Assembly: GCF_040183065.1 (NCBI RefSeq)
Contig: NC_091120.1
Location: 176,540,988-176,604,987 of the forward strand
Direction of reading: 5' to 3'
Length of the DNA stretch: 64,000 nucleotides
DNA from: Periplaneta americana
Taxonomy: Eukaryota; Arthropoda; Insecta; Blattodea; Blattidae
Below the pieces are notes generated by a model, which had not been told where the DNA came from, did no database searches, and saw only the letters and a list, made by a program, of their open reading frames with translations. How positions within the stretch are numbered: the stretch's first letter is position 1; every line of letters starts with the position of its first letter. The translations under genes and the position numbers were made by a program. Below, one piece after another: positions 8,381-53,314 of the stretch.

Positions 8381-8568
8381 CACAGTCTAGTACAGTATAT
8401 ACAGTCACGAAGCTTGAGTTGTTGAGGGTACTAGAAACAATAGACTGTCCCAGTACTATTTCGCATTGTCTGTGATGAGGCGATAGTAACGATCCTAGAG
8501 GTTAGCAACTATCTATGGATGCATATTCCCTACATATTGAGCTTCGTGACTGTATATACTAGATTGTG
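8381..8568. mobile_element. MITE family M2, copy 1 (7-bp target duplication)
   Basis: 188 bp with terminal inverted repeats of about 30 bp: CACAGTCTAGTA...ATATACAGTCACGAAGCT and the complement. GTATTAG flanks both sides exactly (8374-8380 and 8569-8575). It is homologous along its length to 29,163-29,348, which has its own unrelated 7-bp duplication. No coding capacity. Confidence 0.85.
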
Positions 8569-8659
8569 GTATTAGCAAAAAGTTATTAATGACGTCATAA
8601 AAGTGTATGGTGGAGAAACGGTTGCTTGCTACATGACATCATACCTTGAATTAGGTTAT

Positions 8660-26920: not shown

Positions 26921-27148
26921 ATGGATACCCTCCCTCTTCAATCATGATATAAGACAGAACAATATTATGTTTCTAAGTTTTGGCCAGAAAATCGCTAAAA
27001 TTTCCCAGTCCAAATGTCGAAAATGTCGAGTCCCGGTCTAACCTGGAATTTTTTAATTGATGAACTAGTGGACTTACTCGTGTTAAATATGTAATATTCG
27101 TCCGGCTTACAGCTGTTTCAGTGCATCACGCACCATCATCAGAGCCTA

Positions 27149-28055
27149 CTAGATCGCGGCGTCATCTCGAACTTCTCTGCCTGTTAGGAGGGTGTGTTTT
27201 ATTGTTGGAATGTGTTGGATTGTGGAGTCGAATAGTGTGTGTGTACTGAAATTGATCTGTGTGTTGAGGATTTGATCAGGGTGTGTTTTAGTGTGTTTGT
27301 ATATTTCGTATTGTTCTAGTGTGTTGAGTTTTTGGTTCTTGGGTTGTATGTGTAGGATTTCCATGTCCGTATTTATGTTATTGTATGTATGGTTGGCATT
27401 GGTTATGTGATCGGCGTATGTAGATGTGTTGTGTCCTCTGGTTATAGCTTTAATGTGTTCTTTGTAGCGAGTTTGGAATGATCTGCCTGTCTGTCCTATG
27501 TAGAACTTGTCGCAACTATTACATGTGAGTTTGTATACACCTGTGTGGTCGTATTTATTTGTTTGTGTTTTTTGTGTGTTGAGATGTCTTTGTAGTGTGT
27601 TTTCTGTTCTGTATGTTATGTTGTATTTCTGTTTTCTGAATGAAGATGCGATCTTATGTGTGTTTTTGTTTTCATATGTTAGTGTGATGTATTTCTTGCG
27701 TTCTTGTGTTTGTGTTGTGTTTTGTGTATTTATGTGTTTGTTAAGTTTTTGTTTTGTCTTCCTTATGATGTTGTCTATTATGTTTGGATTGTATCAGTTT
27801 TCTTGTGCTATGAATTTGATTGTGTTCACTTCTTCATTGTAGTGTTGTTGGTTCATGGGTATGTTGAGTAATCTGTGTACCATTGTCCTGAATGCAGCAT
27901 GTTTGTGTTGTATGGGGTGGTTAGATGTATTGTGTATGTGTGTGGTGGTGGTGGTTGGTTTTCTGTATATTTTGAAGGTGTGTTTGTTGTCGATTTTTGT
28001 TATGGTGATGTCTAGGAAATTTATGGAGTTGTTGTTCTCAAGTTCTAGTGTGTAT
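27149..28055 (-). pseudogene. Penelope-like element fragment, left copy
   Basis: The minus-strand frame begins with the end of the reverse transcriptase (SINFLDITITK, then FKIYRKPTTT) and runs through the linker to the GIY-YIG endonuclease domain: GVYKLTCNSCDKFYIGQTGR, RYKEHIKAITRGH and EQYEIYKHTKTHPDQI. It ends REVRDDAAI and a TAG. One TGA at 27,794-27,796 replaces the Gly codon present in the right copy, so this copy is broken although otherwise almost identical. It reaches 65 bp further 5' than the right copy. Cysteine-rich ORFs on the opposite strand are shadows of it. Confidence 0.85.
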
Positions 28056-28056
28056 T

Positions 28057-28899
28057 GACAACAAACACACCTTCAAAATATACAGAAAACCAACCACCAC
28101 CACCACAGACATACACAACACATCTAACCACCCCATACAACACAAACATGCTGCATTCAGGACAATGGTACACAGATTACTCAACATACCCATGAACCAA
28201 CAACACTACAATGAAGACGTGAACACAATCAAATTCATAGCACAAGAAAACGGATACAATCCAAACATAATAGACAACATCATAAGGAAGACAAAACAAA
28301 AACTTAACAAACACATAAATACACAAAACGCAACACAAACACAAGAACGCAAGAAATACATCACACTAACATATGAAAACAAAAACACACATAAGATCGC
28401 ATCTTCATTCAGAAAACAGAAATACAACATATCATATAGAACAGAAAACACACTACAAAGACATCTCAACACACAAAAAACACAAACAAATAAATACGAC
28501 CTCACAGGTGTATACAAACTCACATGTAATAATTGCGACAAGTTCTACATAGGACAGACAGGCAGATCATTCCAAACTCGCTACAAAGAACACATTAAAG
28601 CTATAACCAGAGGACACAACACATCTACATACGCCGATCACATAACCAATGCCAACCATACATACAATAACATAAATACGGACATGGAAATTCTATACAC
28701 AGAACCCAAGAACCAAAAACTCAACAGACTAGAACAATACGAAATATACAAACACACTAAAACACACCCTGATCAAATCCTCAACATACAGATCGATTTC
28801 AGTACACACACACTATTCGACTCCACAATCCAACACATTCCAACAATAAAACACACCATCGTAACAGGCAGAGAAGTTCGAGATGACGCCGCGATCTAG
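28057..28899 (+). CDS. Penelope-like element fragment, right copy: RT end plus GIY-YIG endonuclease
   Basis: A frame open over about 280 codons, with no true start because the element is 5'-truncated at the palindrome centre. It encodes the last part of the RT (DNKHTFKIYRKPTTT), a lysine/asparagine-rich linker, and a GIY-YIG nuclease: GVYKLTCNNCDKFYIGQTGR has the paired GVY...YIG motif, the following RYKEHIKA carries a conserved R and E/H-type block, and EQYEIYKHTK is a later conserved helix. The CxxC in TCNNCDKFY is typical of Penelope-like elements. These retroelements pair an RT with this endonuclease. The upstream RT is missing, so it cannot be autonomous. Confidence 0.8.
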   Translation, partial: DNKHTFKIYRKPTTTTTDIHNTSNHPIQHKHAAFRTMVHRLLNIPMNQQHYNEDVNTIKFIAQENGYNPNIIDNIIRKTKQKLNKHINTQNATQTQERKKYITLTYENKNTHKIASSFRKQKYNISYRTENTLQRHLNTQKTQTNKYDLTGVYKLTCNNCDKFYIGQTGRSFQTRYKEHIKAITRGHNTSTYADHITNANHTYNNINTDMEILYTEPKNQKLNRLEQYEIYKHTKTHPDQILNIQIDFSTHTLFDSTIQHIPTIKHTIVTGREVRDDAAI

Positions 28900-29162
28900 T
28901 AGGCTCTGATGATGGTGCGTGATACACTGAAACAGCTGTAAGCCGGACGAATATTACATATTTAACACGAGTAAGTCCACTAGTTCATCAATTAATTATA
29001 TTCAAGTGTTAAAAGTGGTGTACGCAAGATTCAAAAATGGAATTTTTTCATAAAAAATCCATAGTGACACTTGTGTCATTGGTTCAACGGAACGAGTTCC
29101 GACTCTTGTCTCCGAGTCGGAAGATGACTTGCTTGCGCAACACAGTATTGCTGGCGCCCAAC

Positions 29163-29348
29163 CACAGTCTAGTATATACAGTCACGAAGCTCGAGTTTTG
29201 AGGGTGCTAGGAACAATAGACTGTGCAGGTACTATTTCGCATTGTCTGTAATGGGGTGATAGTAGCGATCCTAGTAGTGAGCAACTACCTATGGATGCAT
29301 ATTTATTTACTGCGTATTGAGCTTCGTGACTGTATATACTAGACTGTG
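29163..29348. mobile_element. MITE family M2, copy 2 (7-bp target duplication)
   Basis: 186 bp, homologous to 8,381-8,568. The TIR CACAGTCTAGTATATACAGT continues through CACGAAGCTC, with a complementary right end. GCCCAAC flanks both sides exactly (29,156-29,162 and 29,349-29,355). Confidence 0.87.
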
Positions 29349-29355
29349 GCCCAAC

Positions 29356-30100
29356 TCTGAGTTGAAATTTCGGAACGGTAGGTTCCGAGCTACTGTTCAT
29401 TTTTGCTACAGTTCCAAAATAACTGTTGCGTTATTTTTTACCCACCTCTAGTGAGGTGAATGCTTGCAGCATGAATTCAATTCCTGGAAGTACGTAGATC
29501 ATTTCAGTATATTAACCGGTACTTGTTTAAAATGATGATGGATATAAATAGTCTGAAATGAATTAATGAACTGATGTGAAGTACAGTAGAGATAATGAAA
29601 GTCGCGGATTCATGCAGCAAGAAAGTTATCAATCCAGTGACATCATGTCAAATTTCGGGTTAGGTTTTGTAGCTGTATTTTTCGAATGTGAAAAAATATT
29701 CCACCCCTATTGCCACCTGGTTAAGGAACACACGTTTGGTATTGGAGACCACAGCGCGGTTATTTCTTTCAAGGTTGCAAATGGAATATCTCAATATCCA
29801 TACCATGTAGCTAGTCATGTTTGGTTTGAAACCATTCATGTAAAGAGATGACTCTGATGATTTATTTTGCCGTGATTTTGTTCTGATTTAAGATAATATG
29901 ATAAATGAAGTAGTATACAACTGTCATGGTTAACTTGCAAAATTCAGTATTCTGTGTACATGCTCAGAATTATGCTGGAGAAGTAAAGGAAATGCGTAGA
30001 CAAGATAACGACGAAACAAGATATCAGACGCCTGTTTCTCATTGATACGGAGATCAACATCGACTGCGATGTGCTTAATTCTAAATACAATTAGGCTTTA
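29356..30100. other. Non-coding stretch, nothing recognised
   Basis: A 91-codon plus-strand ORF at 29,576-29,851 has no recognisable domain; otherwise AT-rich. Confidence 0.3.
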
Positions 30101-30233
30101 TTATTTATTTGTTCATCATTTATTTATTTATTTATTTACTTATTTTTCTGTTTATTTATTTCTGTTTATTTATTTATCTGTCTATTCATTTATTTATTTA
30201 TTCATTTATATATTTACTTATTTATTAACGTGT

Positions 30234-30280
<47 letters not shown>

Positions 30281-31016
30281 TTCATTCATTTGTACAGTTA
30301 TTTATTTACTCATTCATTCATTTGTATATTTATTTATTTATTCGTTCATTTGTTCATTTATTTATTTTTTGTTCATTTTTTCATTTGTTAGTTTATTATT
30401 TATTTACTTATTTATTTATTCATTCATTCATTCGTTCGTTTATTTATTTAGTCATTCAATAATTCATTCATTCATTCATTCGTGTATTTATTTATTTTTC
30501 GTTCATTATTTATTTATTTATTTATTTACTTATTCATTTATTTATTCATTTGTATATTTATGTATTTATTCATTCATTTGTATAATTATTTATTTATTTA
30601 TTCATTCATTTGTATATTTATTTATTTATTCATTCATTCATTTGTTCATTTATTTATTTTTGTTCATTTTTTCGTTTGTTTATTATTTATTTAGTTATTT
30701 ATTCATTCGTGTATTTATTTATTTATTTATCTATTTATTTATTTATTTATTTATATAGTCATGTATTCATTCATACATTCATTCATTCGTGTATTTATTT
30801 ATTTTTCGTTCATCATTTGTTCATTTATTTATTTATTTTATTTATTTATTTAATTATTTATTCATTCATTTGTATATTTATATATTTATTTATTCATTCA
30901 TTCATTCATTCATTCATTCATTTGTATATTTATTTATTTATTCATTCATTTGTATATTTATTTATTTATTTTTCGTTCATCGTTTATGTATTTAGTTATT
31001 TATTTATTTATTTACT
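30101..31016. repeat. Long (TTTA/TTCA)n tetranucleotide array
   Basis: About 0.9 kb of TTTA units with frequent TTCA, TTTG and TATA variants and a higher-order pattern: a GTATTTATTTATTTTTCGTTCAT-type block recurs several times. A shorter TTTA/TCTG continuation follows at about 31,122-31,190. The long Y/L/F/I ORFs are artefacts of the repeat. Confidence 0.97.
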
Positions 31017-40852: not shown

Positions 40853-41354
40853 TAATTTCAAGGGAAAAATTGTTCCGTGGCCGGGTATCGATCCCGGGAC
40901 CTCTGGTTGAATGTACCAGTGCTCTACCACTGAGCTACCCGGGAACTCCACACGTCTCAACTTTTCCCTTTATATCCACACAACTCGCATGGGCTGACGA
41001 AACGCCAGAGACCCACAATGAGTGCACACAATCTCTGTGTGACTTGGAATTGTGGTTTTCTGTTAACGTACACAGTAACGTATATATTATGTAAATCTAG
41101 TCTTTCAGGTGAAGCTCCCTGTAAAGCAGATTTGAATAATTTCAAGGGAAAAATTGTTCCGGGGCCGGGTATCGATCCCGGGACCTCTGGTTGAACATAC
41201 CAGCGCTCTACCACTGAGCTACCCGGCAGTGGTAGAGCGCTGGTACATTCAACCAGAGGTCCCGGGATCGATACCCGGCCCCGGAACAATTTTTCCCTTG
41301 AAATTATTCAAATCTGCTTTACAGGGAGCTTCACCTGAAAGACTAGATTTGCAT
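40853..41354. repeat. tRNA-like repeats, ending in a 128-bp-arm hairpin
   Basis: Three copies of a tRNA-like module lie here: two on minus (about 40,858-40,945 and 41,150-41,226) and one on plus (41,227-41,303). Each shows GGTAGAGC...CTGGTA, then GGTCCCGGGATCGATACCCGGCC (B-box and T-arm-like), then a constant GGAACAATTTTTCCCTTGAAATTATT tail. The last two form an inverted repeat: 41,089-41,216 against 41,227-41,354, with a 10-bp loop. The first two are direct repeats about 290 bp apart. No proper anticodon loop (position 33 is C) and no 3' tRNA context, so this is a repetitive element rather than a tRNA gene. Confidence 0.8.
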
Positions 41355-44486: not shown

Positions 44487-45779
44487 CAGTAGAATCCCTT
44501 GTATCTGGCAACTACGGGACAAAGCCAGTGCCAGATAACGGAATTTGCCGATCAATTGGAAAATATTTTACAGGTTATTTAAATACATAATAGATATGCT
44601 TGTTCGGAGATTCCACCATCTTTCAAGTACTGTTCCCAAACCTATCTAGATGTCTTAACCGGCTATTTCTAAACGGAGCTGAGGTCGTGAATTAACTGTT
44701 CCGCCATTTGTCGAGCAGGCAAAAAAGTACATATTATTCACCTAATAGATATTTGTGTACCCGAAAGAGTCACATCTATGACATATAACAGAATTCTGTG
44801 AAGTGAACACAATTTGATTGTCTAGTTCAAAAATGCGACAACTCAAAAAAACAAGTTTTGAGATATCTTCAGTTGAAAGTTTCAAATAAATCACTTAGAA
44901 AGGAACAGAGTTCTGGTTCATAACCACGACAATTAGAAATGAGTCAGTATTCAGGACGAGTTTATTACAATCTTCCAGTTCATTATTAATGCATTTCGAA
45001 ATGTACTAAAACTGAATTAGTAAAGTCCATAGTTATAATTATTTCTAAAGTAGTTTATTTAGTTTTTTTTTTCTTTTTGGTTGTAAATATGACTTATCTC
45101 AATATTGAATCGGAAAGAGCTCCGAAAGGGGCTTTCAGTAGTATAAAAAACTAAAAAATTACAATTTTTGAGTTGTCGCACTTTTGAACTGGACGATCAA
45201 ATTGTCCAATATAAAATATACAGACACACAAAAACACACCCCAATGAAATTCTCAACACACAACTCAATTTCAGAACACACACACTCTTTGACTACATTA
45301 CACCACACGAATATACCCTCACAGGAAACAAAACAAGAGGTGCCATGACCAACAACGACCAGTTCTGAGGATGACCCATAAAAGGTCGAAACATGTAAAC
45401 CAGGTACGATAGAATTTAACACAAGAAAGTCATATAATACATATTCCGAAGTGATACAGTGTTAAAAGTTGTGTAATCAAGATTTACAATTGTCCACTTC
45501 AAAAATGGCAGCTTCCGAAAATCTAGATGGCTGTTTCTTTGTTTAGTTCTGAGAAGATAGTCTTTCTGTTCTCGAAGGTTTAGTTTGTGCAGTGACAGTT
45601 TGAACATTGATATTACTGCAATCTAGTGGTGCCTCATTAAAAAATATAGGTCGCTACATCAATTTGTAATCTACTTACTGGCTTTCCATCATATTTTTAT
45701 TTTATTTTTTCCTTATTCAAAAGTGCCATTGTTTTGGAATTGCCGGATATCTGGGTGCCAGATATGAGGGATTCCACTG
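44487..45779. mobile_element. pogo/Tigger-like element containing a nested Penelope-like fragment
   Basis: The left end CAGTAGAATCCCTTGTATCTGG and right end (complement) CAGTGGAATCCCTCATATCTGG are inverted repeats flanked by TA (44,485-44,486 and 45,780-45,781). A second TGCCAGATAACGGAATTTGCCG motif inside the left end is mirrored at the right. The interior is occupied by a Penelope-like 3' fragment (about 45,205-45,500) and an inverted motif pair at 44,812/45,165. No transposase of its own was recognised. Confidence 0.75.
45205..45500 (+). pseudogene. Penelope-like element, extreme 3' fragment
   Basis: The plus-strand frame reads QYKIYRHTKTHPNEILNTQL then NFRTHTLFD, parallel to YEIYKHTKTHPDQILNTQIN FSTHTLFD of the copies at 27-29 kb, and ends NNDQF-stop. 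It is followed by the Penelope-type GAGGATGACCCATAAAAGGT CGAAAC segment and a GTGTTAAAAGTTGTGTA motif like that after the 28.9-kb copy. Only the last part of the endonuclease C-terminus remains; it is a different subfamily from the palindrome copies. Confidence 0.7.
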
Positions 45780-52140: not shown

Positions 52141-53314
52141 TCTATACTAATAATAAATCTGTAATCGAAATTTTTCTGGTAATTTTCGCTTTTCCAAAAA
52201 TAATTGGTGTTAACATGTATAATTAATCATCCTGAAACCGAAAATCGCTTTTTTGAAATTTTTTGTTTGTATGTCTGTCTGTCTGTCTGTCTGTCTGTCT
52301 GGATGTTTGTTACCTTTTCACGCGATAATGGCTGAACGGATTTCGATGAAAATTGGAACATAAATTAAGTTCGTTGTAACTTAGATTTTAGGCTATATGG
52401 CATTCAAAATACTTTATTTAAAAGGGGGGTTATAAGGGGGCCTGAATTAAATAAACTGAAATATCTCGCTTATTATTGATTTTTGTGAAAAATGTTACAT
52501 AACAAAAATTTCTTTAAAAATGATTTCCGATAAGTTTTATTCCACGCAAAATTTTGATAGGACTGATATTTAAGTCTGTCTGTCTGGATGTTTGTTACCT
52601 TTTCACGTGATAATGGCTGAACGGACTTCGATGAAAATTGGAATATAGATTAAGTTCGTTGTAATTTAGATTCTAGGCTATATAGCATTCAAAATACTTT
52701 ATTTAAAAGGGGGGTTATAAGGGGGCCTGAATTAAATAAACCGAAATATCTCGCTTATTATTGATTTTTGTGAAAACTGTTACATAACAAAAGTTTCTTT
52801 AAAAATGATTTCCGATAAGTTTTATTCCAGGCAAAATTTTGATAGGATTGATATTTAAGGATATACAAGAGTTTTAAAATAACAATACAATACATTTCCA
52901 CCGCCGCCTCAGATTATAGTGTCGTTGTTCCGTAACTGCTATGTGCAAAATATTAAATTTTTTAGTAGGAAGAAAAGCAAATTTAATCATTCTATGGCAG
53001 TAGTGCATAGGAGATCGTGAATTCTTATATTTTTACACAATCGACTCTATTAATTTGGAGTGATTTATTAAAGGATGCATTCAAGACTAATTTAGAAAAA
53101 TGTTAAACGAATTATCTTTGCACCAAATGAGTGGTCTCTGGACCAAAATGATAGCATTTTAATTATTTAAATACAATTTAAATTAAGTAGCATGTTAAAC
53201 GATTTATTCTTCTATCAAACACGAATGTTCCCTGGACCCAATGTTCTATTTTAATTATGTAATTACTTTATATTTATTTCTAATAAGTGCAGCTGAGCGC
53301 ACGGGTACAGCTAG
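52141..53314 (+). mobile_element. Non-autonomous Helitron, copy 1
   Basis: Begins TCTATACTAATAATAAATCT and ends with a GC-rich hairpin-forming stretch (GTGCAGCTGAGCGCAC) followed by GGTACAGCTAG. It is inserted between A (52,140) and T (53,315), the Helitron preference, and has no TIR. It contains a TCTG microsatellite (about 52,272-52,300) and an internal tandem duplication of 285 bp (GGATGTTTGTTACCTTTTCA at 52,301 and 52,586). No Rep/helicase is present. The 3' end lies 95 bp from the donor of a Pvf-like exon. Confidence 0.85.

Follow-up and report, generated by a model that had tools for sequence, protein, structure and literature searches.

A near-perfect palindrome in the American cockroach (Periplaneta americana), lying within the stretch of 64,000 nucleotides that was analysed (the window), probably arose as one insertion of a Penelope-like element (PLE) by two-ended target-primed reverse transcription. 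What is observed is a single insertion whose two arms point their 3' ends outward, with two fixed 3' ends that occur once each, 5' ends that are independent of each other, and joins that mostly carry microhomology. On this evidence the original prediction of one PLE event was right, and the mechanism that it offered was wrong.

The palindrome and its element

An inverted-repeat search of the window returned arms at 27053-27994 and 28054-28995, 942 nt each, 98% complementary and with 59 nt between them, and a direct count between the arms gave 20 substitutions (11 transitions), no indels and 97.9% identity. A chance origin is excluded by the length of the arms alone. The search and the count confirm the palindrome itself, and the count bears out the scattered substitutions without net length change that had been described; the arms of 939 bp and gap of 65 bp given for it do not stand as exact figures, since another choice of boundaries yields 942 and 59. 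The TGA reported in the left copy, where the right has GGA, is upheld by the base pair 27796/28252 and by both translations. The apparent spacer of 59-65 bp is additional 5' end of the left copy and no separate sequence; the 5' ends of the two arms are ~65 nt apart. The 3' sides are also unequal, with 46 nt in the right copy (the tail) that are absent from the left. The equal arm ends and common 3' flank that had been claimed are therefore not present. An 11-bp repeat, TGGAATTTTTT, bounds the whole palindrome in direct orientation (Table 1), so that one target duplication encloses both 5'-truncated copies, as expected of one event. Inversion-duplication of a single copy had been proposed, and both these direct flanks and the occurrence of the head-to-head layout at many unlinked loci speak against it.

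Table 1. Features of the palindrome; positions are those of the window, and "ref" positions are those of L055:3908-5412, a longer copy in the genome that serves as the coordinate system.
Feature	Position	Strand	Remarks
Left target-site duplication TGGAATTTTTT	27044..27054	.	last 2 bases ambiguous with element end
Left PLE copy, untailed, 5'-truncated	27053..28058	-	3' end leftmost; ref 446-1451
Hammerhead-like motif, left copy	27104..27146	-	core letters only; mirrored from right arm
3' part of ORF with GIY-YIG-like endonuclease region, left copy	27152..28058	-	in-frame TGA 27796-27794; coordinates mirrored from right arm
Central junction	28054..28058	.	arm overlap, 2-5 nt microhomology by aligner settings
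Right PLE copy body, 5'-truncated	28054..28995	+	ref 510/513-1451; with tail to ~29041, ref 1497
GIY-YIG-like endonuclease part of ORF, right copy	28498..28896	+	stop codon 28897-28899; PF01541 below cut-off
Hammerhead-like motif GGCT CTGATGA ... GAAA ... TGTA/AGCC, right copy	28902..28944	+	predicted cut after 28940
46-nt 3' tail, right copy alone	28996..29041	+	
Right target-site duplication TGGAATTTTTT	29038..29048	.	first 4 bases ambiguous with tail end

The high identity of the arms had been taken to imply a recent origin or upkeep by conversion. No special cause is needed for it, since the left arm is 99.4% identical to an unlinked copy (L002) and 97.9% to its own partner, and conversion between the window's two arms may have taken place. 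An assembly artefact, also raised earlier, is unlikely, since the layout recurs with arm lengths and target duplications that vary, and the sequence derives from HiFi reads if it is that of the published assembly. The 2025 American cockroach assembly has 17 chromosome scaffolds and 74 unplaced contigs (3.23 Gb) and was built from PacBio HiFi and Hi-C data (PMC12774602). Matches to Rfam microRNA and thermometer families at the centre of the palindrome were set aside, as all were below the gathering scores and such matches are expected from a long near-perfect hairpin.

Judged from its sequence, the element is a member of the Penelope-like family, of the EN+ (Penelope/Poseidon) type. PF01541 (GIY-YIG) is the best Pfam match in the right arm's ORF, with an E-value of 0.0034 and 18.1 bits against a cut-off of 22.6; the whole 281-aa arm gave no GIY-YIG match. 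The translated arm has the motif GVYKLTC..FYIGQT, and comparison with the PDB returned an intron endonuclease at an E-value of 0.46 only. The reverse transcriptase domain is found in a longer copy, L066 (RVT_1, E 6.7e-10, 39.5 bits, cut-off 29.6), and the arms in the window are truncated downstream of it. Another copy (L094/L095) starts within the tail and continues into ATGGAGTACC..., the tail sequence running into the ORF start codon ATGGA. Because this copy reads from the tail into the ORF, the tail is the leader that precedes the ORF, with its outer end at the start codon. The ORF is open for 382 codons from the ATG to the end of the stretch examined in L095 and for 418 codons in L066, and arithmetic across different copies would put its length at ~824 codons. 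A relic of the 3' part of a related PLE ORF (82% identity over 103 bp) lies at 45207-45307 of the window.

The hammerhead-like motif downstream of the stop codon has the letters CTGATGA..GAAA..TGTA, which are those of a hammerhead ribozyme core, and a 4-bp stem I. Rfam returned no hammerhead match in the right arm at E<=10, or in either arm at E<=1, and a single-sequence fold of the right-arm motif did not display the hammerhead form. Across the 58 arms that span the motif, 3 of 754 core sites carry a base other than the commonest, compared with 103 of 10522 in the ORF (raw counts).

The window holds several other repeats. A TTTA tetranucleotide array of ~231 units (30097-31014) lies ~1 kb past the palindrome. 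A 188-bp element at 29162-29349 has perfect 31-bp terminal inverted repeats and, by eye, an apparent 7-bp duplication (GCCCAAC); a second copy is at 8381-8569 (85%), and there are further copies in L064 and L040. Two tRNA-Asn-like genes with anticodons att and gtt lie ~210 bp apart on the minus strand (40872-41228), and a 285-bp unit at 52289-52859 is tandemly duplicated (two copies, 95%).

Head-to-head pairs across the genome

The genome searched comprises 91 contigs and 3,231,669,367 bases, and a 35-mer probe in the 3' region of the element has 973 matches in it at two mismatches or fewer. Among the 100 exact matches listed there are 24 neighbouring pairs less than 8 kb apart, and all 24 are in the '-+' order that places the 3' ends outward; four of these 24 distances are 108-123 bp. 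The neighbour counts rest on exact matches and thus miss any pair in which one of the probe sites is mutated. The 100 listed matches define 76 regions, 36 of which were examined as loci; with L001-L008 these make 44, less L003, which is the L051 locus. The further head-to-head copies that the original prediction suggested looking for were found as 5'-truncated pairs at 25 of the 36 loci derived from probe matches, one of them (L064) with an arm that is tail only. The remaining 11 loci were not scored as pairs, indicating that pairs are not the sole product; L059 apparently has just one arm, flanked by a 10-bp duplication of its own, and L052 and L062 have short inverted pieces. The annotated set consists of 29 pairs, namely these 25 together with L001 (the window), L002, L006 and L008. 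The 24 listed neighbour pairs include 13 within the 36 loci, the window itself and 10 previously unseen pairs that were held out and read at their outer ends only.

The tail is a 46-nt sequence with tight ends, and it is present on one arm per pair. Exactly one arm is tailed in all 29 annotated pairs (the left in 17, the right in 12) and in all 10 hold-out pairs, that is in 39/39 overall, which has a probability of ~2e-12 if each arm is tailed independently at 1/2. A tail probe has 1332 genomic matches, and among the 100 exact tail matches listed there are no two-tailed head-to-head neighbours within 8 kb. The two probes are not equally conserved, so no ratio is formed from the 1332 tail and 973 body matches. 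Two same-strand tail neighbours, the only ones less than 8 kb apart among the matches listed, may be tandem copies (C1:79684870-79688475, 3571 bp apart, and C3:53307500-53307692, 158 bp). An older relative of the family (L068:2904-3204, 78-83% identity) is likewise a head-to-head pair in which a single arm is tailed.

Exact direct repeats of at least 8 nt surround the whole pair in 24 of the 29 annotated cases, compared with 24 of 812 mismatched left/right pairings; the other five pairs have no exact duplication of that length. The lengths have a mode of 11-12 bp and reach 14, and the 23 duplications of at least 9 nt are 83% A+T. The hold-out pairs have duplications of at least 10 nt in 8/10 cases (2/90 when mismatched). 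The longest inverted match between the flanks across the 29 pairs is 8 nt.

The 5' ends are variable. Within a pair they lie 1-884 nt apart, in 14/29 cases the longer arm is the tailed one, and the 29 annotated pairs have 29 distinct combinations of arm ends. Microhomology of 2-5 nt is found at 15 of the 21 insert-free joins, versus 11% for random joins (p ~2e-10, or 1e-7 with 29 as the denominator), and inserts of 1-50 nt are found at 8/29 joins. The longest insert (50 nt, L064:854-905) resembles, by eye, the beginning of the ORF of L094 in antisense, as a template jump would leave it. The right arm of L044 has an internal gap and that of L072 is interrupted by ~500 bp; reading these two as joins with inserts of 54 and 713 nt was rejected, since further pieces of the same arm are present. 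The interval ref 1340-1370, around the leading edge of the hammerhead-like motif, contains nine of the 58 arm ends, among them both ends of three pairs; these ends could reflect run-off at the 5' end of the RNA. In the mini-pairs L053:678-881, L060:678-876 and L074:675-866 both arms stop at ref 1352-1363, with 5-11 nt between them.

Partner arms have 15 rare alleles in common, whereas 2000 permutations give 0.5 on average and never more than 3. These are spread over five loci (L071, 7; L008, 4; L040, 2; L049 and L051, 1 each), with 11/15 from two of them, and 24/29 pairs share none. At the five loci the two arms look like copies of one source, although later conversion between the arms could also have produced the shared alleles; the zero sharing in the other 24 pairs is what is expected if the source matched the majority, and is no proof. 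Minor alleles present in at least two other loci are concordant in 3 cases and discordant in 3, all discordant ones at ref 1405 (a CpG by eye), and those present in at least one other locus are concordant in 7 and discordant in 23, the discordant ones being mostly C>T or G>A changes that may be recurrent mutations. Taken by itself, this concordance count lends no support to a shared source; the permutation of rare alleles does.

The left arm of the window pair carries 3 private changes and the right arm 16 (binomial p 0.004 before correction for the 29 pairs); the imbalance has no clear mutation signature (C>G p 0.02, transitions p 0.59). A search for a second source of the right-arm variants found the 35-mer at 28682-28716, which spans three right-arm changes, only in the window (genome-wide, one mismatch or fewer). 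Neither the imbalance nor the unique right-arm stretch is predicted by same-source arms with an even clock. A different source for each arm had been suggested by the left arm being nearer to L002 than to its partner, and was rejected because allele sharing pointed the opposite way. A similar lopsidedness at L008 and L040 proved to be an artefact of counting indels per base, and both are near balance with indels as single events.

Proposed two-ended priming and the alternatives

In the mechanism proposed here, a GIY-YIG-type endonuclease would make staggered cuts, ~11-12 bp apart, in the two strands of AT-rich DNA, giving rise to the duplication that is seen. Both target 3' ends would then prime cDNA on the element RNA in the same event, as the 3'-out order suggests. 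One cDNA would begin at the ORF start codon and become the tailed arm, and the other would begin 46 nt upstream and become the untailed arm; both positions are the observed ends of the inserts, and work on the anole enzyme discussed below suggests that they are starts of reverse transcription. Each cDNA would halt independently, and a joining enzyme would presumably unite the ends, mostly through microhomology of 2-5 nt, with short inserts in some cases. Since an ORF follows the junction at which the starts are placed, and the arms contain the end of an ORF ahead of that junction, the template may be a circular RNA or a tandem one.

Self-priming, in which one cDNA (or an antisense RNA) folds back and copies itself into inverted arms, was put forward in PMC3846280 on the basis of palindromes at inverted junctions. 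It accounts for the head-to-head order and for arms of the same source, and the near-equal arm ends of the small pairs L053, L060 and L074, with so little sequence between them, agree with it. Yet it predicts identical 3' ends on both arms, and these differ in 39/39 pairs. Folding back along a target-attached cDNA should also invert the flank, whereas in the 29 pairs the inverted match is 8 nt at most and direct repeats reach 14, and 5' offsets of up to 884 nt would require very large loops. Fold-back thus appears improbable as the source of the pairs.

The near identity of the arms and their origin in one event would equally suit a local rearrangement, in which a single inserted element was afterwards duplicated in inverted form or by a template switch. 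Such a rearrangement does not predict the one-arm tail, the outer direct target duplication or the recurrence at unlinked loci with varied arm lengths, and we regard it as very improbable. The unequal 5' ends might instead point to two independent insertions side by side, but all 24 listed neighbours are 3'-out, one duplication encloses both arms, and partners have rare alleles in common at five loci, which leaves that reading with a minimal probability. There is as little to recommend the idea that the palindromic dimer is itself mobile and copied whole: several mini-pairs are of similar size, as the cluster among the listed neighbour distances shows, and yet no combination of arm ends occurs twice in the annotated set. 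Two-ended priming is thus the preferred reading of the pairs.

Relation to known systems

In LINE-1 twin priming an inverted segment arises because the RNA is also primed by the second target end, and the segments are largely non-overlapping parts of one RNA. Two-ended priming resembles it in the use of the second target end to prime on RNA. The cockroach arms differ in that the same 3' region is present in both of them in 28/29 pairs, with overlaps that reach 1297 positions; the exception is L064, where the tailed arm is tail only.

EN+ Penelope elements of Adineta vaga (Pen2a_Av and others) have a head-to-head inverted order, 5' truncation and target duplications of 8-10 bp, with an optional tail on one inverted pLTR and an ORF of 830-842 aa (PMC3846280). 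Typically such an element has its full ORF flanked by direct pLTRs, next to which lies an inverted pLTR; copy numbers are low, and in 2013 the authors favoured self-priming on antisense RNA (PMC3846280). The cockroach family has in common with them the head-to-head order, the tail on one repeat, the short target duplications and the 5' truncation, and an ORF of the estimated ~824 codons would be close in length. It differs from what is described there in consisting of many pairs of two truncated arms, with hundreds of probe matches, and in that the one-tail rule has been counted.

The Poseidon protein PAc of Anolis carolinensis cleaves both strands in vitro and extends them from two neighbouring internal starts, which mark the ends of the tail (PMC11167929). 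A hammerhead motif lies near its ORF start, its targets are AT-rich, and its main start is 111-118 bp inside the ORF; the start site showed no strand difference in vitro (PMC11167929). AT-rich targets are common to PAc, as reported, and the cockroach family, which also has a candidate hammerhead motif and a tail bounded by two probable starts and would likewise have both strands cut and extended. The genomic pairs of the cockroach differ in using one start each, at the ORF start and 46 nt before it. An analysis of paired products is absent from the passages of PMC11167929 cited here.

Both the head-to-head arrangement of PLE copies and the presence of a tail on one of the inverted repeats have already been published (PMC3846280), as have the two starts and the extension of both strands (PMC11167929). 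The interesting part is the one-tail rule. A limited literature search found neither a strict one-each tail rule nor two-ended priming as the cause of pairs. It is conceivable, if somewhat doubtful, that the PLE ribonucleoprotein is obligately two-headed, with one RNA, two adjacent starts, one for each cut end, and both cDNAs made from the same RNA. If so, the pairs would be the designed product and no accident, and the one-tail rule would be a readout of one RNA in an enzyme dimer.

The route of PLE integration and the frequent inverted pairs are described as unresolved in the cited passages of both mechanism papers (PMC3846280, PMC11167929). A young PLE family in a long-read genome now shows, in the pairs examined, a strict rule that self-priming does not predict and that two-ended priming can explain. 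The one-tail rule makes the question of PLE integration testable with the anole enzyme, which has already been purified.
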